Positions 3,246-14,256 of a stretch of DNA of 51,938 nt are shown piece after piece. Under the pieces are notes generated by a model. That model searched no databases. It saw only the letters and a program-made list of their open reading frames with translations, and had not been told where the DNA came from. Origin of the DNA: Emticicia aquatilis (lineage in GTDB: Bacteria; Bacteroidota; Bacteroidia; Cytophagales; Spirosomataceae); NCBI RefSeq assembly GCF_014644295.1, contig NZ_BMKK01000021.1, positions 1-51,938 on the forward strand. Reading direction: 5' to 3'. A program made the translations under genes and the position numbers. How positions within the stretch are numbered: position 1 is the first letter of the stretch; every line of letters begins with the position of its first letter.

Positions 3246-3971
3246 ATGAAACTATTTGACGAAGACAATTATATACATCAGCTTTCGATAGATTGTGTAA
3301 TTTTTGGATATAGAGAGAGAGAATTAAAGGTCTTGGTGCCAAAAGTTAATATCGAAATACCACTTTGGACACTCCCTGGGGGATTTATCAAACAAGAAGA
3401 AAGCATCGACGAAGCCGCCAAAAGGATTTTGGAAGAACGCACGGGATTAAAGGATATTTATCTCGAACAATATAGGGTTTTTGGGGAACCCACTCGTATC
3501 AATTTGGAAATTTCTGAAAATTTAAACAAGCTTAAAAATCAAGTTATTGAAAACTGTATGCTCAATGATACTGACGTAAAGTGGCTTTCAAGAAGATTTA
3601 TTTCGATTGGTTATTATGCTTTGGTTGATATAAATAAGGTAAATACGAAAACGGGGCTGTTTGATGAATCGGTTGATTGGTATAACGTAAAAGATTTACC
3701 AAAGATGATAATGGACCACAATGAAATGGTCAGTTATGCACTCGAAACACTTCGCCAATATCTCGACCAAAAATTGATTGGATTCAACCTTCTCCCCGAA
3801 ACTTTCACGATGAAAGAAGTACAAGAACTCTACGAGGCCGTTTACGATAAACCTTTTGCAAGAAATAACTTCCAAAAGAAAATCTTGGATATGAACGTAC
3901 TCGAACGCCTTGAGAAGAAATTTACGGGTGCGGCCAATAAGGCTCCGTATTTGTACAAGTTTCGGAACTGA
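3246..3971 (+). CDS. Nudix-fold transcriptional regulator (NrtR/AraR-like)
   Basis: A 241-residue DNA-binding regulator: an N-terminal Nudix-fold ligand-binding domain (about 1-150) and a C-terminal winged helix (about 165-241, TFTMKEVQELYEAV ... NNFQKKIL). The Nudix box begins GGFIKQEES at residue 45 and ends RILEERTGL at 60-68. Where catalysis needs R-E-hydrophobic-x-E-E, the sequence has R-I-L-E-E-R, so at least two catalytic glutamates are lost. This is typical of family members that bind a ligand without hydrolysing it. In Bacteroidota such proteins control sugar catabolism (family knowledge). The palindromic sites at 3100-3126 and 11599-11621 are its likely operators. Its stop codon lies 6 bases from the convergent YdeI-like gene. 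Confidence 0.9.
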   Translation: MKLFDEDNYIHQLSIDCVIFGYRERELKVLVPKVNIEIPLWTLPGGFIKQEESIDEAAKRILEERTGLKDIYLEQYRVFGEPTRINLEISENLNKLKNQVIENCMLNDTDVKWLSRRFISIGYYALVDINKVNTKTGLFDESVDWYNVKDLPKMIMDHNEMVSYALETLRQYLDQKLIGFNLLPETFTMKEVQELYEAVYDKPFARNNFQKKILDMNVLERLEKKFTGAANKAPYLYKFRN

Positions 3972-3977
3972 AGTTTC

Positions 3978-4616
3978 TTATGTAATGTATTTGTGCGAAC
4001 CATCGCAGTTAGGTAGCCTTTTCGATAAGCCACAAATGCAATCATTAAAGCCTTTGCCATTCATTATTCGTTCGGTATAGCTTTCAATTCTTGAAGCACG
4101 AGCCTTTGAAGATTTCGCTCCAGTAAAATAAATATTATAAGCCCTCTGACGACCAGGAGTTAATGCTTCAAAGGCTACTTTAAAAGCAGAGTCAGATTTA
4201 AACTTTTGAAGCAGTTCATCAGGAAAAACTAATTCGGCTTTGCTAACAGATACTACTTTTAAACCTGCTTTTTCAACCTCGATAGCTTCATAAATATAGG
4301 CTTTCAAAGTTGGGGTTAAATCGTTTATTTTCTGAATCTCGGTAAATGAGATAATACGCCCCGATTGAGTATTTTCGCCTGGTTTTTGTAAAATGTTTTC
4401 TGAATCATGCAATAACACTCCTTTAAGAAAACTAATGAAACAATAATCTTTGAATCCTCCGAGAAGGATAACATTAGTGTTATTGAAGGTATAGCAAGGT
4501 TGCCCCCACTTTAGTTCTTCGGTCAGGCCACAAGCGAGAACAATATTTCTCAGCCGTTTCAGTTCTTCCTGCCATTTGGCACTTTTTTCTAAAAATTCAT
4601 CAACTTTTGGATTCAT
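3978..4616 (-). CDS. YdeI/DUF1801-family protein with C-terminal CDGSH motif
   Basis: The 212-residue protein has an N-terminal DUF1801-type domain (about 10-120), a YdeI/OmdA-associated helical segment (about 130-190, DALTPGRQ-type region ending in KARASRIES) and a C-terminal motif CICGLSKRLPNCDGSH. This matches exactly the CDGSH iron-sulfur ligand pattern C-x-C-x2-S-x3-P-x-C-D-G-S-H, so a [2Fe-2S] cluster is plausible. Cellular function is unknown. It is the last gene of an ArsR-AHSA1-DoxX-YdeI operon; the gap to DoxX is 19 bases. Members of this group often occur beside AHSA1 and DoxX genes, suggesting a shared stress or redox role (inference). Confidence 0.88.
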   Translation of the reverse strand: MNPKVDEFLEKSAKWQEELKRLRNIVLACGLTEELKWGQPCYTFNNTNVILLGGFKDYCFISFLKGVLLHDSENILQKPGENTQSGRIISFTEIQKINDLTPTLKAYIYEAIEVEKAGLKVVSVSKAELVFPDELLQKFKSDSAFKVAFEALTPGRQRAYNIYFTGAKSSKARASRIESYTERIMNGKGFNDCICGLSKRLPNCDGSHKYIT

Positions 4617-4635
4617 GTACTTGATTGATTGGTGT

Positions 4636-5010
4636 TTAAAAACTAAGTTTTCTATCTGCTGGTCTAAAATACCAAGAAACGGCCGTTAAAATTAACAATA
4701 AAACTGGTCCGAAAAGCTCCTTGGCAGCATCTCCACTGGCGATGTGCGAGTAAACTGCCCCAGACATCGAAAAGAAAAAACCAGCATACGCCCACTCTTT
4801 CAATAGTGGAAATTTAGGTAAAAGTACGGCCACAACTCCCAGTATTTTCCAAACACCGAGTAAAGTCAGAAAGTAAAGCGGATAACCTAAATGTGCCATC
4901 ATATCGGCTTCTTCTTTCATTTTTATTAGCTGTACGATTCCTGTCGAAACCATACCGAGCGAAAGCCAAACAGTGGCCACCCAATAAATAATTTTGTTTC
5001 TCTTTCCCAT
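4636..5010 (-). CDS. DoxX-like integral membrane protein
   Basis: A 124-residue inner-membrane protein with four predicted hydrophobic helices (about 10-30, 44-64, 70-88, 98-116). Length and pattern fit the DoxX-like family, including GVWKILGVVAVLLPKFPLLKE between helices 2 and 3. DoxX-like proteins are of uncertain function; some are linked to quinone or thiol redox. It lies 7 bases downstream of the AHSA1 gene in the ArsR-controlled operon. Confidence 0.88.
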   Translation of the reverse strand: MGKRNKIIYWVATVWLSLGMVSTGIVQLIKMKEEADMMAHLGYPLYFLTLLGVWKILGVVAVLLPKFPLLKEWAYAGFFFSMSGAVYSHIASGDAAKELFGPVLLLILTAVSWYFRPADRKLSF

Positions 5011-5017
5011 AATTGTA

Positions 5018-5482
5018 TTAAATTAATTCGCTTAAAATTGCTTGTAATCTATCGTGAGCCATATTTAGGCCGTAAGCAAAAGGCAATTTCAATTGCTCGG
5101 CTCGGTGTTTTTCTGACCTATAAATTATCTGCATCGTGAGTTTGCTGGTATCGGGATTGAGTTGTTCGAACTCCAAAAACTCCAACTGAACACCTACTGG
5201 TATATTCTCCATTTCAAACGTTCGGATGATTCGCTGATTCGGCAAAAATTCATGAATAGTGCCATTGGCCTTAAACATCACATTGCCCTTGTGCGAAGTT
5301 TCAATCTGAAAACTACCGTGATTTCTGTTTTCAAGTTTTATGACTTTTGTTCCCATCCATTGTTCTACAAGCTCGGGTTCGGTGTATGCCTTAAAAAGTA
5401 ACTCCAAAGGCAAATCAAACTCCCTCGTAATCACCAAATCTTGTTTACCATCTTCGACTTTGATTTTTGTTTTCTGTTCCAT
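5018..5482 (-). CDS. SRPBCC/AHSA1-family protein
   Basis: This is a 154-residue cytosolic START-like fold protein of the Activator-of-Hsp90-ATPase-1-like (AHSA1) group. The family signature VITREFDLPLELLFKAYTEP occupies residues 17-36, followed by VEQWMGTK and the conserved strand pattern ending DRLQAILSEL. Such proteins form a hydrophobic ligand-binding cavity; the ligand is unknown. In many bacteria an AHSA1 gene directly follows an ArsR repressor, as here with a 5-base gap, so it is expected to be derepressed with its neighbours. Confidence 0.92.
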   Translation of the reverse strand: MEQKTKIKVEDGKQDLVITREFDLPLELLFKAYTEPELVEQWMGTKVIKLENRNHGSFQIETSHKGNVMFKANGTIHEFLPNQRIIRTFEMENIPVGVQLEFLEFEQLNPDTSKLTMQIIYRSEKHRAEQLKLPFAYGLNMAHDRLQAILSELI

Positions 5483-5487
5483 AAAAG

Positions 5488-5811
5488 CTATTCTTTGGTT
5501 TTGTATGCCTGCATGATGGCCTCCAATTTATTGAATCTATCATCCCACATTTTGCGGAATTGCTCAACAAAGTCTGCTACTTCTTCCATTTTATTGGCAT
5601 TGACGTGATAGTAAATTTCTCGACCATTCTGCTCTTGTTTGAGCAATTCGCACTCAGTCAGAATCTGTAAATGCTTTGAAACCGTTGGTCGTGCGGTATC
5701 GAAATTGGCAGCAATCGCTCCCGCTGTCATTGATTGCGAAGCAACCAAAAGTAGTATCGCCCTACGGGTAGGGTCGGCTATTGCTTGAAAAACGTCTCTT
5801 CGTAAATTCAT
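5488..5811 (-). CDS. ArsR-family winged-helix repressor
   Basis: The product is a 107-residue ArsR/SmtB-type DNA-binding protein. The N-terminal [16 protein letters not shown] and the recognition region [12 protein letters not shown] (about 45-57) are diagnostic, followed by the wing [13 protein letters not shown]. No metal-binding cysteine pair (CxCxxC) is visible, so it belongs to the non-metal subgroup normally found with AHSA1 genes. It is the first gene of a four-gene operon. Its promoter carries two direct 17-bp repeats flanking the -7 box, a likely autoregulatory site. A decayed homologue lies at 7446-7612. Confidence 0.93.
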
Positions 5812-5813
5812 TA

Positions 5814-5861
5814 TGTAGCTATTTGACTACAAATATATGTGTAGCTATTTGACTACGCAAA
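5814..5861 (-). promoter_or_regulatory. ArsR operon promoter with twin operator repeats
   Basis: On the minus strand a -33 TTTG (5861-5858) and a -7 TATATTTG (5837-5830) are separated by 20 bases, a good Bacteroidota promoter. The 17-base sequence TGTAGCTATTTGACTAC occurs twice as an exact direct repeat (5814-5830 and 5840-5856). Each copy has GTAG/CTAC dyad ends, and together the copies bracket the -7 box. This is a typical arrangement for ArsR autorepression. Confidence 0.7.
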
Positions 5862-6085
5862 TTATTTTTGACTTTTTTGATGAAAAATAATTCTGGAGAG
5901 CGATTTTGATACCTGCTTGACTAATTTCACTGAATAAATTCAGCGGCTAATTGAACAAAGGAGTGTATTTTTTGATTAAAACTGAATAAATTTAGTTTAG
6001 CGAAAGAGTAATTCTTTCACTTTTTCAAAATGTAGGTTTCTTTCATTATTAATTGATAAAAACTAAACAAACCTTGTAATAAAGC
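5862..6085. other. Intergenic stretch with two small palindromes
   Basis: No gene is visible. Two related dyads occur: CTGAATAAATTCAG at 5930-5943 and ACTGAATAAATTTAGT at 5981-5996. They could be protein-binding sites or chance in AT-rich DNA; nothing links them to a particular gene. Confidence 0.3.
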
Positions 6086-6117
6086 AAAAAGAGAGCGTTT
6101 CATTACGCTCTCTTTTT
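6086..6117 (-). terminator. Intrinsic terminator of the GH5-like gene
   Basis: Perfect stem AAAAAGAGAGCG / CGCTCTCTTTTT with an 8-base loop, 22 bases past the stop codon of the minus-strand GH5-like gene. The U-rich strand follows the stem in that direction. Confidence 0.85.
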
Positions 6118-6138
6118 ACTCTATTCTATTCAAATTTA

Positions 6139-7188
6139 TTATTTCTTCTGTGTATGTTTCTTGATTGCTTCTACTTCTTCGGCTTTGTAGATACTGCCGT
6201 CTTTTCTGAAAATATCGTGAAACCACAACGGAGGTTCGCCGCCATCTGGCATTGGGTTCGACCAAGCGTAAATTGTATTGGTTTTTCCTGCTACAAGTCC
6301 CCAGTTGATAGCCCCAACATTGTATTTTTTGAAAACAGGTAAGCAAGTTTGGAAAAAACTATTGTCACGACGAGCCATATATTCTGAGCAAATCAAAGGA
6401 CGACCGTATTTTTGAAGACCTTTTATTTCATTTTCAAGATTTTGAGCATCTTTATAATTATGAAATGTAATAATATCAGAATTTTCGAGCATTACTTGGT
6501 TGCTAAGTTCGTGATTATTCCAAATCGCTGCTGTTACGGGTTGAGACGGACGCACTTCTAATGCCCATTCAAATGTCTTTTTCAATAATGGCAAACAAGC
6601 ATCAACATAACCGCTATTCGATGGCTCATTGAATAAATCCCAAGCCAAAACTCGATTATCGTTCGCAAAATGCTTGAGTGTGCCTTTTACGTATTCTTCC
6701 AAACGCCCCCATTTACGAGAATCAAAAAGCACTTTTGTACCCGGACTTCTCACCCAACCCGAATTATGAACGCCCGTTTTTGGCTCTGGTTGTTTGCCAA
6801 GTTTTGGGTCATCGTTCCAGCATGAATCAAAGAAAACAAAAAGTATTTTTATGTGATGCTTATCTGCAATTTTCAATAATTCATCCATTCTTTTCAAAAA
6901 ACCATCTTTATCTTGTTCGTAAAGTAAATCATGCAAATAAACTCGCATCACATTCATTCCTAAAGATTCTGCCCAACCTAATTCTCGGTCAATAGTTGTA
7001 GGGTCGAAGGTATCGGCTTGGAACATTTCCAGTTGATTGATGGCAGTACTCGGAATAAAATTTGCCCCAGTCAACGTGCCTTGTTTGGCATACCATTCGT
7101 TGGCTTTCTGAGCTGACCATTTTTGAGCTTTAAGCGTTGAAATGCTTAACGAAAGCACTATCATTAAGAGGATTTTTTGAAATTTCAT
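6139..7188 (-). CDS. Secreted GH5-like glycoside hydrolase
   Basis: A 349-residue putative beta-glycosidase of the GH5 / clan GH-A TIM-barrel type. An N-terminal signal peptide ends near AQK (residues 1-22). The barrel carries WDLFNEPS with the expected acid/base Glu188 and CSEYMARR with the expected nucleophile Glu269, plus WNNH and HNYK on intervening strands. The start at 7188 (MKFQKILL) is chosen over 7236 because it opens directly into a signal peptide. Substrate is not evident; beta-mannan or beta-glucan would fit the clan. It is a single-gene unit ended by the terminator at 6086-6117. A possible -7 box (TACTTTTG on the minus strand) lies at 7270-7277. Confidence 0.85.
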   Translation of the reverse strand: MKFQKILLMIVLSLSISTLKAQKWSAQKANEWYAKQGTLTGANFIPSTAINQLEMFQADTFDPTTIDRELGWAESLGMNVMRVYLHDLLYEQDKDGFLKRMDELLKIADKHHIKILFVFFDSCWNDDPKLGKQPEPKTGVHNSGWVRSPGTKVLFDSRKWGRLEEYVKGTLKHFANDNRVLAWDLFNEPSNSGYVDACLPLLKKTFEWALEVRPSQPVTAAIWNNHELSNQVMLENSDIITFHNYKDAQNLENEIKGLQKYGRPLICSEYMARRDNSFFQTCLPVFKKYNVGAINWGLVAGKTNTIYAWSNPMPDGGEPPLWFHDIFRKDGSIYKAEEVEAIKKHTQKK

Positions 7189-7445
7189 TGTAGGTTTGAT
7201 TGAATAATTGAAACAGTAAACTATTTTTAGGCACATTTGTCTCTTATCTGCCTTAAAAGATGCTTATTACAAAAGTAGTTTACTTTTCAGTAAAACTCAT
7301 ATTTATTATTGGCTAAGTTCTATTTTTAACGAATGTGCAAAGCTTTGCTCGTTTGGTTTTATGTGGCAGAGTCGGTGTGCAAATGTTTGCACACTTTCCA
7401 TATTTATCTTAGTTCTACTTATTTTTTTTAGTTTTTGCCATTGCC
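7189..7445. other. Intergenic region with perfect small palindromes
   Basis: No gene is visible. GCAAAGCTTTGC (7337-7348) and a 20-bp perfect dyad with arms GTGTGCAAA / TTTGCACAC (7375-7394) stand out. The stretch before 7445 may hold the decayed 3' end of the ArsR relic next to it (a TTTGGTTTT-rich patch near 7351), but the similarity is too weak to call. Confidence 0.4.
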
Positions 7446-7612
7446 CCCTACTTCATCCATTTCATTGCCATTAATATTGTCGTAAATTTCTCAACTGTTT
7501 TACACTTATTCTGATAACTCATACTCGGTCAAAATCTGTACTGTTTTAAAACCGTTGAATGTACTACCAAAAGTAATATTGTCCTACATGTAGGGTCATA
7601 GCTTCAACTAAG
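7446..7612 (-). pseudogene. Decayed ArsR-family gene fragment
   Basis: This stretch aligns collinearly with the intact ArsR gene (5576-5790, same strand). Shared blocks include ACTCGGTCAAAATCTGTA versus ACTCAGTCAGAATCTGTA and CCTACATGTAGGGTC versus CCTACGGGTAGGGTC. Translated, it gives ILTEYELSE (intact: ILTECELLK) and EIYDNINGNEMDEV (intact: [14 protein letters not shown]). Several stops, a one-base slip and a deletion of about 50 bases corresponding to the recognition helix interrupt it. The retained protein-level similarity suggests a relic of a separate paralogue. Its 5' end stops at the terminator of the reverse-transcriptase cassette, as if that insertion cut it. Confidence 0.7.
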
Positions 7613-7614
7613 AG

Positions 7615-7754
7615 CAATAAAAAAGGTAGCATATCCCCCGCTACCTTTTTGTTTTTGTCCTCTATTACCGAGTATTGCCGCTGCAAGTGTGTATAAATAA
7701 TCATATTTCGTATAAATAGTCAATATGACCTGGGGATTAGCATTGGCATTATCA
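7615..7754 (-). ncRNA. Candidate DRT3 non-coding RNA with ACACAC stretch
   Basis: Directly after the drt3b stop codon, about 130 bases on the minus strand carry ordered structure. First comes a stem TCATATT/AATATGA (7728-7722 with 7707-7701). Then ACACAC (7692-7687), then an abutting mini-hairpin TTGC/GCAA (7686-7675), then an 11-bp terminator hairpin (7650-7620). DRT type 3 systems are known to need an ncRNA. My recollection of recent work is that Drt3a copies an ACACAC element in that RNA. Position, structure and the ACACAC make this the best candidate, but I cannot compare it with known DRT3 RNAs here. No separate promoter was found; it may be processed from the operon transcript. Confidence 0.5.
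7620..7650 (-). terminator. Terminator of the DRT3 cassette
   Basis: Perfect 11-bp stem AAAAAGGTAGC / GCTACCTTTTT with a 9-base loop. On the minus strand the stem is followed by a T-run. It closes the drt3a-drt3b transcript and would form the 3' end of the candidate ncRNA. It is symmetric enough to work in both directions. Confidence 0.8.
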
Positions 7755-9890
7755 TTAAGAGTAAACCTCTTGACTCTTTTTATTTTCTAATTCTTTGGCT
7801 AAATTAAATCTTTCCCATTTTGTAAACCAATATTTATGTTCTTTGTGAAATGTGTTAATTTTTTCAGCATCTATTATTGTATTTTGAATATCAGATTCGG
7901 TTGAACTACTCCTGTACAAAAGTAAAATTTTCTTTTTAAATTCAGCATCTACAAATGGGCAAGCAAATAAATCCAACATCAGATGAGCAATTTCAGATGA
8001 TTTACCCCTTTTTTCAGTAGGATAAGAACTAATATAATCAAATGTATAGTCAATTAAAGCATTTTTAAGCTGAGGGTATTTTTGGGAATACCCAATATAA
8101 TAAAATGTTACAACGATAGAAAAATAATTTAATGTTCCTTTCTTAATAGTTAAAATATCATTTTCTTGATATGTATTAATGAATTTAGAAAGTAGTTGTT
8201 CTGGCAATCTGTATTCTTTGCCTAAATCTCGTAAAACAGTTAGTAAATAAAGTGATTCGATTTGAGCATACTCATTCAAAGTATTCTTGTTTAGAATAAA
8301 AGTAGATTCATCTAATATTCTTTTGAATACACGTTCACGCCTATTCTGAGTATTTATTTTTTCCTTGTAAAATTTAATGATTTTAGAAAGAATATGACAT
8401 ACCTTAATGGTTGAGTTAACCCTCGGTGAAACAGAGTATATAAAGAAAATAAAATCAATAAAACCTTCAATGTGTGTCGCAAAAGAATCTTCTACTTTGT
8501 TTATCTTTATTAAATCAGACTTAGACAGTTCTTCATTAGTTTTCTTTACCCAATATTCTTTGATAACATTTTCAAAGTTAATAAGATTTCTTTCAATTAT
8601 ATTATTCAATACAGCTAAACTGTAATTCAGTACATCTTTGTAGTCAACTTTTGATTCTTTTATTATTATCTTATATTTAGTAGCAAGATTATTAGGGTCA
8701 AAATAGAAATTAAAATTGTGTTCTATCAAAGAAATATCCTTGTTCTCATCTCGCTTATTATTGATATTTGTAGAATCTATTTTACTTATTATAAACTTGG
8801 GTTCGTCAGAAAATAATTCTATGATTTTATTTTTTGCAATTGTTATTTCAGTTATTATTGGCTTACTATAATCCAACGATTTAGAATCATTTATTGCTAA
8901 TTTATATAGTTTTAGCTCATGTTTTAATATGACTAAAATTTCATCTTTTAGAGATTCACTATCACAAAACAAAAAATAGTCATCAACATACCTATACAAT
9001 TCATACTGTGTCTTCAGAAAATAACCCCTTACTTTCAGTTTATCTTCAACTGTTTTATCAATTCTTTGTAAAATAATTTCTGCAAAAATTCTTGAAAACT
9101 CGGGACCAATTAAAATTCCATTTGTTTCCCCATAGTTTGTGTATTGAATAAAATTATCAAAAATACCTCCAAAAGACTTTTTAGACTCATTTACATTCTC
9201 TTTAACAGCATCCAAACCCAAAACGGCCCAAACAATTGAATGGGTATAAATACTATAAAAACAGTTTGAAATATCGAATTTGAATAGATAATTATACTTT
9301 TTTTCAGCTCTTTGATAACGATAGTCTTCATAGAATCTGTAAATGTTTGTGTATTTACTATATGAAAAAAACGTTTTAAGGTTTTCATATTCTTTACCAC
9401 TTAATTCCAAAAAATCGGTAACCTCTCCTTTGTTTGATTGGTGAAGTTTATCGTTGAAAAAAGAAAACTTTGCTACATTATCAGGTCTTCTTATGCTATA
9501 ATTACTTACTGAACAAGAGTAAATTATTAACTCTTTAAACTGGTCATAGAAACTAATTAATTTCAACTGATTGATAGGATGAACTAAAGCAAGCTCTCGA
9601 AAATCATTCTTTTTATGAGATATTCGGTAAGTAAATGGAATTTTTCTAAAATTTGGATTCGAAATGTCAGCTGAAAATAAAATCTTAATTAGAATTTCAA
9701 AAGCATCCTTTTCATCTCCAATATATTTTGATTTATGTCGAATATTGTTGTCAATCACTTCTATTTTATTATCTAATAGAAACCTATAAAAATACCTATT
9801 AGAAAAAGTAATTGGTATTTCATAAGGAAGAACATCAGAAAGTATCGCTCTTTCTTTTGGATATTTAATATACTTTTTCTTTTTACTCAT
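7755..9890 (-). CDS. drt3b: Antiviral reverse transcriptase Drt3b (UG8 type)
   Basis: A 711-residue RNA-directed DNA polymerase homologue of the bacterial 'unknown group' RTs. Motif A is FKFDISNCFYSIYTHS (Asp206), motif B GILIGPEFSRIFAEI (about 258-272) and motif C YRYVDDYFLF (YVDD 301-304). An approximately 200-residue N-terminal extension and a 350-residue helical C-terminus, with no maturase, HNH or integrase domain, fit the larger partner of DRT type 3. It overlaps the upstream RT gene by 8 bases (start 9890, stop 9883), indicating translational coupling. DRT3 confers phage defence through cooperation of the two RTs with an ncRNA. The gene is visibly more AT-rich than its neighbours, a sign of horizontal acquisition. 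Confidence 0.85.
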   Translation of the reverse strand: MSKKKKYIKYPKERAILSDVLPYEIPITFSNRYFYRFLLDNKIEVIDNNIRHKSKYIGDEKDAFEILIKILFSADISNPNFRKIPFTYRISHKKNDFRELALVHPINQLKLISFYDQFKELIIYSCSVSNYSIRRPDNVAKFSFFNDKLHQSNKGEVTDFLELSGKEYENLKTFFSYSKYTNIYRFYEDYRYQRAEKKYNYLFKFDISNCFYSIYTHSIVWAVLGLDAVKENVNESKKSFGGIFDNFIQYTNYGETNGILIGPEFSRIFAEIILQRIDKTVEDKLKVRGYFLKTQYELYRYVDDYFLFCDSESLKDEILVILKHELKLYKLAINDSKSLDYSKPIITEITIAKNKIIELFSDEPKFIISKIDSTNINNKRDENKDISLIEHNFNFYFDPNNLATKYKIIIKESKVDYKDVLNYSLAVLNNIIERNLINFENVIKEYWVKKTNEELSKSDLIKINKVEDSFATHIEGFIDFIFFIYSVSPRVNSTIKVCHILSKIIKFYKEKINTQNRRERVFKRILDESTFILNKNTLNEYAQIESLYLLTVLRDLGKEYRLPEQLLSKFINTYQENDILTIKKGTLNYFSIVVTFYYIGYSQKYPQLKNALIDYTFDYISSYPTEKRGKSSEIAHLMLDLFACPFVDAEFKKKILLLYRSSSTESDIQNTIIDAEKINTFHKEHKYWFTKWERFNLAKELENKKSQEVYS

Positions 9891-11376
9891 CTTTCCATAT
9901 TGATTTAATTACCTCAAATTTGTTTGTAGACCTTTTGAATTTTTTGGAATAAAATTTATTTTCTCTGTCTCCAAATGTAAATGAGTAGAAGTATTTTTCT
10001 TTTTGATTAAAACCCTTTTGGAAGCTAAAATTGTTGAGTATGTGTAGAATAATATTCGTTTTTTTAATTCCAATTTTCGGTGGTGGTTGTAAGGATTTTA
10101 CAGCTTTCATACGTTCTTTGTCAAGACGTTTAAGACTTTCGTATGTTATTGTATTTAATTTGAGCATCTCATTTGAATAATAAATGCCTGATTTAACATT
10201 TCTTTTATTATTATTTAAATGAAAATTTCCAGTAAGAAACTTTAACCTTGCGTATAGCATATTTCTTGCCTCTTTTTCATTATAAATGGAATCTTGATTA
10301 TATGCATCAACTAAAAGTTTTAATCTCTTTTTATATCGTTCTATCTTATTATCTGATATTTCTAACAAAACTTGAAAGTCAACTTTCTTTTTACCTAAAA
10401 CCATAGTTTCAGCTCTTTTTATTTGAAATAAATATCCTAAAAAATTAAATGACTCATTATAGGATACTCTACTCATAAGGTCTATTTCAAACGTTTTATT
10501 TTCTTTTCCATCCGTTCCGTCTTTCAATGATAGGCTATTATTATTACAAATTATTTTCTTAATTTCTTCCAGATATTTACCTTTTGTACTCGTCGTTTTG
10601 GGAGAAAAAATAATTATAATATCATCAACATATCGAGCATAATAAATTACATCTTGTAAAGATTTAATGCTATTATCAATATCTCTCATATACAATTCTG
10701 ATAAATATGCACTAAGTCCTATTCCTCTTGGAATCCCTTTTTGAGGTTCAATAATAGTTTTATCCTTTTTGTCTTCAAACTCATAAAACAATTTTCTTAG
10801 AAGTTTCTTTGAAAATGGAGAAAGTAAGGTATTATCTTCAATTTTATCAAAAAGCTTATCTTGCGGAATTGACTCATAAAAAGATTTTATATCAGTTTTA
10901 ATTACAACTTTTGGAAATCCGTCAGATAATATATTAAATAGCTGTTTTATAATTCTATTTCTATCTGCTTGTATTACTTTAAAAGTTTTACTAATATTCG
11001 TTTGAAGCTGTTTAATTGCATAATATGATGCAGCATCATTTTCTACTGTGTAAACTTCTTTCTTATTATTATATTCTATATTGAATTTAAACGTATTTAA
11101 ATTTATTGCCTTTGAAAGGTCTTCAAAGATGGATATTCTTATCTCTTCTTTCTCGTTATTTATAATTTCAAGCCTTTTCGCAAAATCATCCAATTCTTCT
11201 TTAGATAGTTTTGCCTTCTCCTTTTTTAATAGAATCTTCTCACGTACCAGCGATTTAAACTCTTGATGCTTGGCTGTGTACTCAGGTGTAAAATAAGATT
11301 TGTTAAAATTCCCTTTCCGATTTTCTCTCAAAAACAATATAATGAGATTAGAACTTGAAAATGATTGGTCTAACAT
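9883..11376 (-). CDS. drt3a: Antiviral reverse transcriptase Drt3a (UG3 type)
   Basis: This 497-residue RT carries motif A KTDIKSFYESI (Asp162), motif B GIPRGIGLSAYLSE (214-227), motif C YARYVDDIIIIF (YVDD 249-252) and a motif D/E region SFNFLGYLFQI near 309. The N-terminus MLDQSFSSSN...ENRKGNF resembles the start of Drt3a proteins as I remember them, and supports the start at 11376. All catalytic aspartates are intact. It is the first gene of a two-gene operon, overlapping drt3b by 8 bases. An AT-rich leader follows upstream with a possible promoter at 11431-11458. Alternatives considered were a retron, a group II intron RT and a DGR RT; the paired overlapping RT genes and absence of accessory domains argue against these. 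Confidence 0.85.
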   Translation of the reverse strand: MLDQSFSSSNLIILFLRENRKGNFNKSYFTPEYTAKHQEFKSLVREKILLKKEKAKLSKEELDDFAKRLEIINNEKEEIRISIFEDLSKAINLNTFKFNIEYNNKKEVYTVENDAASYYAIKQLQTNISKTFKVIQADRNRIIKQLFNILSDGFPKVVIKTDIKSFYESIPQDKLFDKIEDNTLLSPFSKKLLRKLFYEFEDKKDKTIIEPQKGIPRGIGLSAYLSELYMRDIDNSIKSLQDVIYYARYVDDIIIIFSPKTTSTKGKYLEEIKKIICNNNSLSLKDGTDGKENKTFEIDLMSRVSYNESFNFLGYLFQIKRAETMVLGKKKVDFQVLLEISDNKIERYKKRLKLLVDAYNQDSIYNEKEARNMLYARLKFLTGNFHLNNNKRNVKSGIYYSNEMLKLNTITYESLKRLDKERMKAVKSLQPPPKIGIKKTNIILHILNNFSFQKGFNQKEKYFYSFTFGDRENKFYSKKFKRSTNKFEVIKSIWKDE

Positions 11377-11430
11377 TTCTAACTACATTTACGAATTTAT
11401 AAAAATATACCCTCATTCTTTCTCTTACTT

Positions 11431-11458
11431 CAAATATACTAAATCCAAAACCATCAAA
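11431..11458 (-). promoter_or_regulatory. Possible drt3a promoter
   Basis: Minus-strand -7 TATATTTG (11438-11431) and -33 TTTG (11458-11455) separated by 16 bases, a little shorter than the usual 19-21. It lies 55 bases upstream of the drt3a start. Confidence 0.35.
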
Positions 11459-11598
11459 ATCACGATACTATAATTAATATACGTTTTATTTATTTTTCGG
11501 TATTACCCTATATCTCACTCCTCCCTATTTTACCACCCACCCAAATTTTTCACCCATTTATCAAGTTTCATATTCTTAGAAAAGTTACATTCATTAAT

Positions 11599-11621
11599 AT
11601 TGTCTAAAATTAAGACAATAA
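11599..11621. promoter_or_regulatory. Second copy of the Nudix-regulator-type palindrome
   Basis: Arms TATTGTCT and AGACAATA around a 7-base spacer (AAAATTA) form a perfect dyad. Arms and spacing are the same as at 3100-3126. It ends 19 bases before the start codon of the outer-membrane receptor gene, so a bound repressor would block its transcription. It suggests that this receptor belongs to the regulon of the Nudix-type regulator (inference). Confidence 0.7.
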
Positions 11622-11640
11622 ACTTTTTTAACTATCAGAA

Positions 11641-14256
11641 ATGATGAAAAAATACCTTCTTCTTATACTCCTCACGGCTTTTTCTTTTGGCACTTTTGCT
11701 CAAATGCCAGGAATGAGTGCCGCACAAGCCAATATTGGCCATGTTTATGGCAAAATTGTAGATAGTCTGGGCAAACCCATTGAGTTTGTCTCGGTAGTGT
11801 TATTGACCAACAAACCCGACCCTGCCACCAAGCAAAACAAAGAAGTTTTGCTAAAAGGCACGGTTACAAAAGCCAATGGCGAATTTAGTTTTGATGAATT
11901 ACCAATTTTTGGCAAGCATAAACTCAAGGTTTCGGCGGTGGGTTATAAAACTCTCGAAATGCCTGTGGCTTTTCAATTAATGATGAATGGCAAGCCAAAC
12001 CCAAAAGCAGAAAATGACCCTGCCGAGCAAATGAAAATGCTTAAAAACCTACTCGGTGGTGTTGACAAAGACTTAGGAAATATCAAGTTTTATGAAGATA
12101 GTCAAGTTTTGCAAGGTGTAACCGTAACCGCAACAAAAGCTTTATTTGAGTCGGATATTGATAAAAAAGTATTTAATGTTGAGAAAAATATCGTTACGGC
12201 AGGAGGAACTGCGGTTGATATTATGAAAAATGTACCATCGCTACAAGTAGATATTGATGGAAACGTGAAACTCCGTAATGCTTCACCACAGATATTTATT
12301 GATGGTCGCCCGACGACACTCTCGCTCGACCAAATCCCTGCCGATGCTATCGAAAAAGTGGAGGTAATTACCAACCCATCAGCCAAATACGATGCTTCAG
12401 GGGGTAATGCGGGTATCTTGAATTTGGTTTTGAAGAAAAACAAAAAAACTGGCTACAACGGTATGGTAAACGCTGGTGCTGACCGTTTGGGTGGTGGTAA
12501 CGTAATGGCGAATTTCAATGTGCGTCAGAATAAAATCAATCTTTCGGCAATGGCCATGACCAACCAAATGAGAAGCAAAACGATTGGCGAAAGCGACCGT
12601 TTTAGTGATGTTGATGGTATCAAATCAACGATTGGGCAGGACGTGGATAGCCGCATGAAAGGCGGATTTTTGTTTTCGAGATTGGGCTTAGATTATTTCG
12701 TAACGAACCGCACAACGCTTTCGGCAGCGGGTATTATCGGGCAAGGGAAGTTCAACCCGAGCGAAAACATTGATATTAATACCCTGAGAGGTTCAATCAA
12801 TACTTACAGTAATCGTATTTCGGCAACCGACCGTATGTTCAGAATGAAAGGTATGCAGTTAGGTTTGAAACATAACTTCACGAAATCGGGAGAAGAATTA
12901 ACGGCTGACATCAATTATTTTGGTGGAAAAAATGATGGTTCGGGTTTATACACAACCAATTATTATTCGGCAACTAATAGCATTTACGGCACTCAGATTC
13001 AGAAAAACTTATCGGATGGAAATAATAAATTCTTGACGATTCAGACCGATTACGTTAGACCGTTTGGCAACAAAGGCTCGCTCGAAATTGGTGCGAGAGC
13101 TCAAATCAATAATCTTAAAAATATCAACGAAAACTCAATTAAGGCTTTGGGTTCGACCGAATTCAAAAATATTAGTTCGGCCACAACCAACTATGAGTCG
13201 AGAAATGATGTTTATGCAGCGTATGTTTCGGTAGCGGGTGCTTACAAAAAAGTATTTTCGTATAAAGTTGGTTTGAGAGCAGAAAGCTCGAAATATGATG
13301 GTAAATTGCTGAATACCAACGAAGACTTCAATAATAAATTCCCTATTAGCCTTTTCCCATCGGTATTTTTGAGCAAAGATTTGAAGAAAAATCAGCAGGT
13401 TCAAATGAGCTTAACTCGCCGTATCAATCGCCCGAATTTCTTCCAATTGATTCCATTTGTTGATTATACCGATAGCTTGAATATCACGAAAGGAAATGCC
13501 GATTTAGTACCTGAATTTACTTATTCGTCGGAGATTTCTTATACCAAAAATAAAGGTGTAAATACATTCATCGGTTCGGCTTACTATAAATATACCGATA
13601 ACTTGATTACGAGGTTTTTGGGTCAAGAAATCAACCCAATCAGTGGCAAAACCGATTTGATAAACACGTTTATCAACGCCAACTCGAGCAATAATTATGG
13701 ATTTGAATTAACGGGCATCACCAAACCTAAAAAATGGTGGGATTTGACAGCCAACGTCAATTTCTATAATTCGAGAATCAACGTTAAGAACCTCGAAATT
13801 GCCTCAACACCAGCACTTTGGAGTATGTTTGGTAAATTGAATAATAATTTCAAATTGCCGAAGAAATTTACGGTTCAACTTTCAGCCGATTATCAAAGTA
13901 AAACTAATTTACCAATCAGCACTGGCGGACAACAGTTTGGCCCACCAAGCCAAGTGCAAAGTGCTTCGCAGGGGTATATCAAGGCATTTTATAGTGTCGA
14001 TGTAGCCATCAAAAAGACATTCTTTAAAGATGCTGCATCATTGACTTTGAGTGTAAATGATATTTTCAGAAGCCGTTACTCGGTACAATATTCCGAAGGT
14101 GTTGGTTTCAATCAAACCTATTCGAGACTCACAAACCCACAAATGGTTCGCTTGAATTTCTCGTATCGTTTTGGAAAAATGGATATGTCGTTGTTCAAAC
14201 GCCAAAACATGAAGAGCCAACAAGAGGGTATGCAGAACGGTATGCAAATGCAGTAA
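11641..14256 (+). CDS. TonB-dependent outer-membrane receptor (outer-membrane beta-barrel family)
   Basis: An 871-residue outer-membrane receptor. A signal peptide (1-21, ending SFGTFAQ) is followed by a CarboxypepD_reg-like domain (about 33-125, GKIVDSLGKPIEFVSVVLL). A plug-like domain comes next (about 155-270, VFNVEKNIV, IFIDGRPTTLSLDQIP, EVITNPSAKYDASGGNAGI), then a long beta-barrel. It belongs to the outer-membrane beta-barrel (OMP_b-brl_3) branch, and no SusD partner is present. The C-terminus is Gln/Met-rich (QQEGMQNGMQMQ) beyond the last barrel strand, where a terminal aromatic is usual. The palindrome at 11599-11621 links it to the Nudix-regulated sugar operon 8 kb away; the DRT3 cassette now lies between them. 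The ligand is unknown. Confidence 0.92.
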   Translation: MMKKYLLLILLTAFSFGTFAQMPGMSAAQANIGHVYGKIVDSLGKPIEFVSVVLLTNKPDPATKQNKEVLLKGTVTKANGEFSFDELPIFGKHKLKVSAVGYKTLEMPVAFQLMMNGKPNPKAENDPAEQMKMLKNLLGGVDKDLGNIKFYEDSQVLQGVTVTATKALFESDIDKKVFNVEKNIVTAGGTAVDIMKNVPSLQVDIDGNVKLRNASPQIFIDGRPTTLSLDQIPADAIEKVEVITNPSAKYDASGGNAGILNLVLKKNKKTGYNGMVNAGADRLGGGNVMANFNVRQNKINLSAMAMTNQMRSKTIGESDRFSDVDGIKSTIGQDVDSRMKGGFLFSRLGLDYFVTNRTTLSAAGIIGQGKFNPSENIDINTLRGSINTYSNRISATDRMFRMKGMQLGLKHNFTKSGEELTADINYFGGKNDGSGLYTTNYYSATNSIYGTQIQKNLSDGNNKFLTIQTDYVRPFGNKGSLEIGARAQINNLKNINENSIKALGSTEFKNISSATTNYESRNDVYAAYVSVAGAYKKVFSYKVGLRAESSKYDGKLLNTNEDFNNKFPISLFPSVFLSKDLKKNQQVQMSLTRRINRPNFFQLIPFVDYTDSLNITKGNADLVPEFTYSSEISYTKNKGVNTFIGSAYYKYTDNLITRFLGQEINPISGKTDLINTFINANSSNNYGFELTGITKPKKWWDLTANVNFYNSRINVKNLEIASTPALWSMFGKLNNNFKLPKKFTVQLSADYQSKTNLPISTGGQQFGPPSQVQSASQGYIKAFYSVDVAIKKTFFKDAASLTLSVNDIFRSRYSVQYSEGVGFNQTYSRLTNPQMVRLNFSYRFGKMDMSLFKRQNMKSQQEGMQNGMQMQ

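Follow-up and report, generated by a model that had tools for sequence, protein, structure and literature searches.

In DRT3, a recently described case, one reverse transcriptase (RT) makes its strand from RNA and a second RT makes the complementary strand from protein. According to the portions of Wang et al. (2026; PMC13174585) drawn on here, the E. coli system has a non-coding RNA (ncRNA) gene downstream of drt3b, and Drt3a produces poly(dTdG) by copying the ACACAC of this RNA. Drt3b needs no nucleic-acid template for its product, poly(dCdA); its synthesis is primed on Y666, with E22 and R241 as the gate, and double-stranded DNA accumulates upon RecBCD inhibition. The locus considered here, within a window of 51,938 nt from Emticicia aquatilis (contig NZ_BMKK01000021.1), raises the question of whether the bases that follow drt3b encode such a template RNA, and what its architecture would be. 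The original prediction, made from the letters of the window, had named this region as a candidate DRT3 ncRNA and had linked it to the ACACAC template of recent work, in agreement with the portions of PMC13174585 just cited. On the comparisons presented below, the minus strand from 7750 to 7619, directly 3' of drt3b, is very probably the DRT3 ncRNA, and we estimate at roughly 90% the probability that the segment encodes a DRT3 defence-system ncRNA of a pseudoknotted architectural class, working by the mechanism proposed in the Discussion. Templating by ACACAC is already published; what is added here is the proposed pseudoknotted RNA class.

Results

The locus and its proteins

Adjacent Drt3a (UG3) and Drt3b (UG8) RTs are present in the window according to their best PADLOC matches (Table 1), and their genes overlap by 8 bases on the minus strand. 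The drt3a product, presumed to be the RNA-templated poly(dTdG) enzyme, matches the solved 9z6y chain with only 91 bits. In the alignment, E24, R267 and Y710 of the window's Drt3b are the equivalents of E22, R241 and Y666 of EcoDRT3b, and an alignment of 98 Drt3b rows, of which two are partial, has R241 in all 98, E22 in 95 (with one D and two gaps) and Y666 in 96.

Table 1. Features of the DRT3 locus (window coordinates; ncRNA elements in 5' to 3' order on the RNA).
Feature	Position	Strand	Description and evidence
drt3a	9883..11376	-	497 aa RT, RYVDD motif; PADLOC PDLC03768 Drt3a, E 9.3e-105; Pfam RVT_1; PDB 9z6y_A, E 1.1e-24
drt3b	7755..9890	-	711 aa; PADLOC PDLC03784 Drt3b, E 1.3e-188; PDB 26cz and 9z6y matches
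Segment with drt3a, drt3b and ncRNA	7430..11517		Missing from the same-genus genome G774, about 90 bp instead
DRT3 ncRNA (very probable), P1 to terminator	7619..7750	-	About 132 nt; covariance model R1, 155 bits, E 2.6e-32; conservation; predicted 5' end
P1 5' strand	7740..7748	-	TGCC (7748-7745) and TGC (7742-7740); minimum-energy fold; two-sided changes
P2 5' strand (P2a)	7732..7737	-	ATCCCC, partner in the P5 loop; covariation and permutation tests
P3 hairpin	7701..7728	-	7 bp and two G-U; single-sequence fold, RNAalifold
Template	7687..7692	-	ACACAC; 105/106 Drt3b loci
P1 3' strand	7676..7684	-	GCA (7684-7682) and GGCA (7679-7676); covariation, minimum-energy fold, RNAalifold
P4 hairpin	7660..7672	-	CTC/GAG, GTAA-containing loop; covariation, minimum-energy fold
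P5 terminator hairpin	7620..7650	-	11 bp (original prediction) or 12 bp (tools); terminator scan; two-sided changes

In a genome of the same genus (G774) the match to the window breaks off at 7429 and resumes at 11518, which places drt3a, drt3b and the RNA in one segment, present here and missing there, by a gain in the window's lineage or a loss in G774. The same segment is absent from a further genome, G772, where the left junction differs from that of G774. Adjoining the far side of the ncRNA, and within the segment missing from G774, a decayed partial copy (7448-7557, about three quarters identical by eye) of 5577-5687 was noticed, whose source lies inside a putative ArsR-like gene (5488-5811).

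Conservation downstream of drt3b

ACACAC occurs within 250 nt 3' of drt3b in all 105 flanks compared, near-copies included (e.g., L002/L023, L063/L065/L068, L090/L094/L096; L023 is the Algoriphagus boritolerans locus), at a median position of 43, against 79 of 2849 control windows (2.8%) taken on the same strand of these loci. In L009, a further locus with a Drt3b-like gene (386 bits), ACACAC is missing there, which brings the overall count to 105 of 106, and a chance occurrence of the hexamer was rejected on these figures. Sampling at the level of the order gave relatives of drt3b in 4 of 390 genomes, and at that of the phylum in 6 of 395, both counts including the window's own genome, and those from genome contigs are the best 80 of 342, nearest to the window, to which 11 loci from plasmids and E. 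coli and 7 distinct ones from viral contigs were added; being sampled by likeness to the window, they give class proportions that are biased rather than representative. For the P1 and P2 tests 98 flanks were reduced to 89 non-redundant ones by k-mer similarity, seven of L113-L120 being added afterwards. The window itself is L004 and L009 stands outside the 105; also outside the counts are other, repeated or context loci (L001, L101-L112, L115, L121-L123, L126-L129), the partial RT matches L124 and L125, the plasmid match H8 and the E. coli matches beyond four.

Could the segment amount to no more than the drt3ab mRNA's 3' UTR and intrinsic terminator, with an incidental ACACAC? The P5 hairpin with its T run is the only terminator-like site that the terminator scan found in 7400-11700, and ACACAC is not enriched in the window (9 observed vs. 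16 expected), both of which such an explanation accommodates. It does not accommodate the frequency of the hexamer downstream of drt3b, nor the covariation of P1 and P2 and their narrow spacing to ACACAC, and we consider it highly improbable. Folded as a lone sequence the region reaches an energy z of -1.67, with 12 of 200 shuffles folding as well. The original description of these 130 bases as structured and not random therefore stands for the elements themselves, which lie on the minus strand, and fails as a claim of structure beyond chance from this sequence alone: hexamer and fold are unremarkable by themselves and become significant because they are conserved in homologous loci.

In the ten closest loci neither the DNA 5' of drt3a nor that past the terminator is conserved (scores 16-26), whereas the ncRNA region scores 75-172 in seven of them and 25-36 in L013, L015 and L016, where only the template and the paired arms are recognisable. 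Upstream of drt3a the local scores in the same ten loci are 22-26, and an ncRNA at that place in the window locus, the finding that had been named as fatal to the prediction, was rejected since the region is unconserved. The ACACAC and its flanking helices are instead conserved in homologous loci, as the prediction required.

A covariance model (R1) built from six sequences, the window's own among them, has a single convincing match in the 6.7-Mb genome, at E 2.6e-32 (the next match having E 0.35), and recovers all five held-out clade members (L013, L015, L016, L017 and L089) at E <= 8e-10. Of the 48 remaining locus sources, 17 have weak matches adjoining drt3b (E 0.001-0.4); since the best off-target match reaches E 0.0099 (54 sources scanned, a subset of the loci), such matches are singly no evidence. 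An Rfam scan of the window returned no match and a tRNA search found none; neither the motif CACACACTTGCAGNGGCAA nor a relative of the L005 Drt3b was found in viral contigs.

Architecture of the RNA

Along the RNA the elements follow the order P1a, P2a, an optional P3, ACACAC, P1b, P4, P5a, P2b (in the loop), P5b and a T run, with the template placed, by prediction and covariation, between the 5' structure and the closing helix. P1, P3, P4 and P5 are given both by folding of the window's sequence alone and by the consensus that RNAalifold derives from six relatives, while P2 is absent from the model and from the fold. Two of the helices had been seen before: the 7-bp stem is P3 (TCATATT/AATATGA, 7728-7722 with 7707-7701), to which the fold adds two G-U pairs, and the 11-bp terminator hairpin is P5, at 7650-7620 with its T run. 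From the drt3b stop to ACACAC there are 62 nt; the RNA has one hairpin between P1 and the template, P2, and a terminator loop that measures 7-9 nt; the length from P1 to the end of the terminator fits the earlier suggestion of a shorter RNA in Bacteroidota.

The third local pairing of the original prediction, a 4-bp mini-hairpin (TTGC/GCAA) next to the template, gives way as the main pairing to P1, which it overlaps and whose 3' strand starts 2 nt after the template. P1 is better supported because it is chosen by the minimum-energy fold and by the RNAalifold consensus, because it shows two-sided changes at 3 of 7 pairs (one pair being open in 2 of the ten clade sequences), and because P1-like helices just 3' of the template recur in other clades and in EcoDRT3-like loci. 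Permutation of the P1 arms gave z -10.5, but taken individually only 16 of 89 loci fall in the top 5%, and in 33 of 89 more than 25% of the swaps are at least as strong. A search restricted to strictly contiguous P1 helices was discarded, as it returned wrong ones for the window and most of its near kin; P1 has a 2x2 internal loop, and the later searches allow a bulge.

A template RNA with local hairpins only (the 7-bp stem, TTGC/GCAA and the terminator), and hence neither P1 nor a pseudoknot, would find its best argument in the mini-hairpin, which by eye can form in 11 of 11 sequences of the window's clade, where it was sought, with G-U pairs or one mismatch in L013, L015, L016, L056 and L089. 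Against it stand the choice of P1 by both folding approaches, the covariation of the P1 5' strand, the P1-like helices elsewhere and the P2 statistics given below, and we hold it to be unlikely, its probability being a matter of a few percent more than that of a plain 3' UTR. The ability of all 11 sequences to form the mini-hairpin means that it may be an alternative state, and a refinement would have the RNA switch, forming the mini-hairpin or P1 and P2 at different times rather than one static pseudoknot. Such a switch is in keeping with the letters shared by mini-hairpin and P1, which make them mutually exclusive, and with the position of P2b in the last-made hairpin; P1 and P2, on the other hand, do not overlap, can coexist and are both found across clades. 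We regard switching as improbable, if less so than the two preceding alternatives, and retain the fold in which P1 and P2 coexist.

The proposed P2 pseudoknot

The P5 loop carries GGGGAT (P2b, 7638-7633), complementary to ATCCCC (7737-7732) just 3' of the P1 5' strand. This complementarity was overlooked when the hairpin was read as a terminator only; judged by comparison of sequences, P2 is a pseudoknot around the template, formed by the P5 loop pairing upstream of it. Within the window's clade it recurs as ATCTCC/GGAGAT, ATCCTC/GAGGAT and ATCTTC/GGAGAT, and 98.3% of the P2 cells are paired. Over all helices of the clade, 11 of 23 pairs have two-sided changes (5 of the 7 counted in P5) against a shuffled mean of 3.9, with 0 of 500 shuffles as high, a result that leans towards structure as the arms were picked and typed by hand. 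They were aligned in this way because MAFFT on the full clade misaligned P2 and P5, and L012 was omitted as a near-copy of L011. The fifth measure for the clade, further pair types, was not significant (16 vs. 13.8, reached by 60 of 500 shuffles).

The automated searches point to the same pairing. A free search gives P2 helices scoring at least 8.6 in 70 of 89 loci, whereas swapped partners reach that score in 25% of cases and shuffled ones in 24%. Of the 71 helices scoring at least 8.3, 65 have a 3' strand that begins 48-63 nt from the template. When P2a is compared with the loop of the strongest 3' hairpin, 54 of 89 native loci pair against 6.8% of swaps (z 12.5; 0 of 20,000 permutations). 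A second set, the 28 of 89 rows with a YCG motif after P1a (2 more had no 3' motif), has 92.9% of its cells paired against 81.8% after shuffling (maximum 88.7%), and 31 two-sided cells against a mean of 9.4 and a maximum of 24 (2000 shuffles). For the window, the free search first placed the 3' strand of the duplex at +81, beyond the terminator; this helix was rejected, and ATCCCC/GGGGAT emerges once the 3' region is limited to at most 75 nt.

In many loci P3 directly adjoins the template or nearly does so. The hairpin is longer in the window's clade, and L017 has none. Among the 66 loci with P2 at its usual place, 22 have no predicted hairpin with an energy below -1.5 kcal/mol in the stretch from P2a to the template, and P2 may serve as the 5' template boundary here.

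Two RNA classes across Drt3b clades

A Drt3b tree of 87 rows (L008 and L090 omitted) was built by a quick method and rooted at the midpoint, its long branches falling mostly in the smaller group. In it seven loci (L005, L091, L093, L095, L098, L099 and L100) split from 80 that include the window. The larger clade spans Bacteroidota, Pseudomonadota, Campylobacterota, Nitrospirota, Acidobacteriota and Margulisiibacteriota. The automated P2 rule passes 69 of its 80 members (11 uncalled) and 2 of the 7 in the other clade. Both calls in the smaller clade were judged to be due to chance: that in L095 comes from 5 bp matching a GNRA-type tetraloop, a match that L093 does not keep, and in L093 P1 was mis-set since the annotated reading frame runs past the usual stop. 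The latter locus is EcoDRT3-like and lies beside satellite-type genes; its drt3b is annotated 12 aa longer than that of L095 and, read in this frame, has no Tyr near the end, which may be a matter of annotation or of a frameshift.

The two solved Drt3b structures were placed by phmmer with six queries (the window, L005, L091, L094, L095 and L098). PDB 26cz, which we take to be EcoDRT3b, is nearest to L095, matching all 667 residues with 1309 bits; 9z6y scores highest with the Vibrio locus L098 (377 bits, compared with 194-302 for the other queries) and presumably represents, together with 9z6z and judging by the molecule names, the DRT3 of Deng et al. (2026). By phmmer similarity, the chains being outside the tree, both are nearest to the smaller clade.

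E. coli has further loci in addition to the EcoDRT3-like ones: two on chromosomes (L094, L096) and one on a plasmid (L090), outside the tree, have near-identical RNA flanks. In L090, whose drt3b is annotated in two pieces, a P2 helix TCAGGC/GCCTGA is called at +60, though not in the strongest hairpin; L094 and L096 carry a short-P1 RNA like that of the window's class beside a 680-aa Drt3b, and are laboratory-tractable relatives.

A divergent locus

The locus that has no ACACAC 3' of drt3b (L009, the same as L128; 3500-6852 in G420) comprises a drt3a-like gene (3630-4943) and a drt3b-like gene (4954-6852). Its candidate RNA lies upstream of drt3a, the position that the original prediction had named as contrary to its proposal, so that the contrary arrangement has a candidate in this distant locus and none in the window locus. 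A 9-bp helix (AGGGCGAGG/CCTCGCCCT) closes the candidate, its 3' strand being directly preceded by ACACAACACA, and the fold has z -3.9 (2 of 200 shuffles as good); two short reading frames, membrane-like by eye, lie further upstream. Since its Drt3a matches both Drt3a (239 bits) and RT_UG17, of DRT10 type (172 bits), the locus may be an intermediate between DRT10 and DRT3. No relative beyond itself was found at E 1e-40 in 294 genomes of its class, nor any in the viral-contig scan.

Discussion

Proposed mechanism

By analogy with the published E. coli work, from which copying, priming, product and defence in the window's system are inferred, P1, whose start lies 2 nt 3' of the template, would offer it to Drt3a, which would copy ACACAC repeatedly into poly(dTdG), while on the template's 5' side P3 and the P2 helix formed by P2a and the P5 loop would halt further copying. 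Poly(dCdA) would come from Drt3b, with priming on Tyr710 and with Glu24 and Arg267 as the gate, and the annealing of the two products would lead to abortive infection. We infer the part of P2 as 5' template boundary and that of P5, whose completion would be the last folding step. Bacteroidota mostly use AddAB-type nucleases, and the trigger may for this reason differ from RecBCD inhibition.

Should this hold, completion of the active fold by the terminator loop would tie RNA activity to a correct end of transcription. The RNA represents a second class with a covarying pseudoknot, the commoner one in a sample that is biased to the window's kin, and it allows one to test directly what makes repeat-copying RTs halt at the 5' edge of the template, besides helping annotators to find such RNAs in Bacteroidota and other phyla. 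A broader reading can be put forward tentatively, at somewhat short of even odds: that most DRT3 systems, in several phyla and including some of E. coli, use a pseudoknotted template RNA in which P2 and not a stem-loop is the 5' boundary, with a core that parallels telomerase RNA. As the two solved Drt3b chains fall closest to the other class, the main DRT3 RNA architecture would then be undescribed.

Comparison with known systems

EcoDRT3 has the same parts as the window, namely Drt3a, Drt3b and a downstream ncRNA with ACACAC, a hairpin 5' and a terminator 3' of it. Its relatives in our set are L093, L095 and L113, the Drt3a of 398 aa and the Drt3b of 667 aa in L095 matching the lengths in the parts of PMC13174585 used here, and L095 has a P1-type helix, GTTAAAAGGT/GCCTTTTAAC, just 3' of the template as in the window. 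The two RNAs differ in what surrounds this core. L095 and L113 have 128 nt before ACACAC, with further predicted hairpins, as opposed to the 62 nt of the window, and the terminator loop is of 3-4 nt in the EcoDRT3-like L095, L113, L114 and L116 and of 7-9 nt in the window. The window thus lacks the Eco-type features (extra hairpins before the template, a loop of 3-4 nt, no P2), which we took from L093, L095, L113, L114 and L116 rather than from the published figure. The covariance model described in the Methods and a legend of PMC13174585 was seeded from EcoDRT3 and close relatives, with 32 unique hits in the former and 41 systems in the latter; the word "pseudoknot" does not occur in the text of that paper, figures apart, and no pseudoknotted DRT3 RNA class was found in the literature searched, a body that excluded Deng et al. 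(2026). The DRT3 of Deng et al. (2026, Science), as outlined in passages of PMC13314766 and PMC13213688, is a 6:6:6 complex of Drt3a, Drt3b and an ncRNA with an ACACAC template; these components are those of the window, and its Drt3b chain is the one nearest to the Vibrio locus.

The ncRNA of DRT10, in the sections of PMC12632851 that describe it, resembles that of the window in its class 2 RT, in a short repetitive template beside a stem-loop and in a telomerase-like addition of repeats. It differs in that the RNA lies upstream of a SLATT gene, the template is a variable A-B-A' and there is no Drt3b; the window's RNA, downstream of drt3b and accompanied by a second RT, does not belong with DRT10. 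Telomerase RNA, as characterised in the same sections of PMC12632851, likewise has a short template framed by a boundary element, either a stem-loop or a pseudoknot. We draw this parallel as an analogy and claim no homology; if the proposed architecture is correct, a template with a pseudoknot core in a repeat-adding RT would parallel telomerase RNA.
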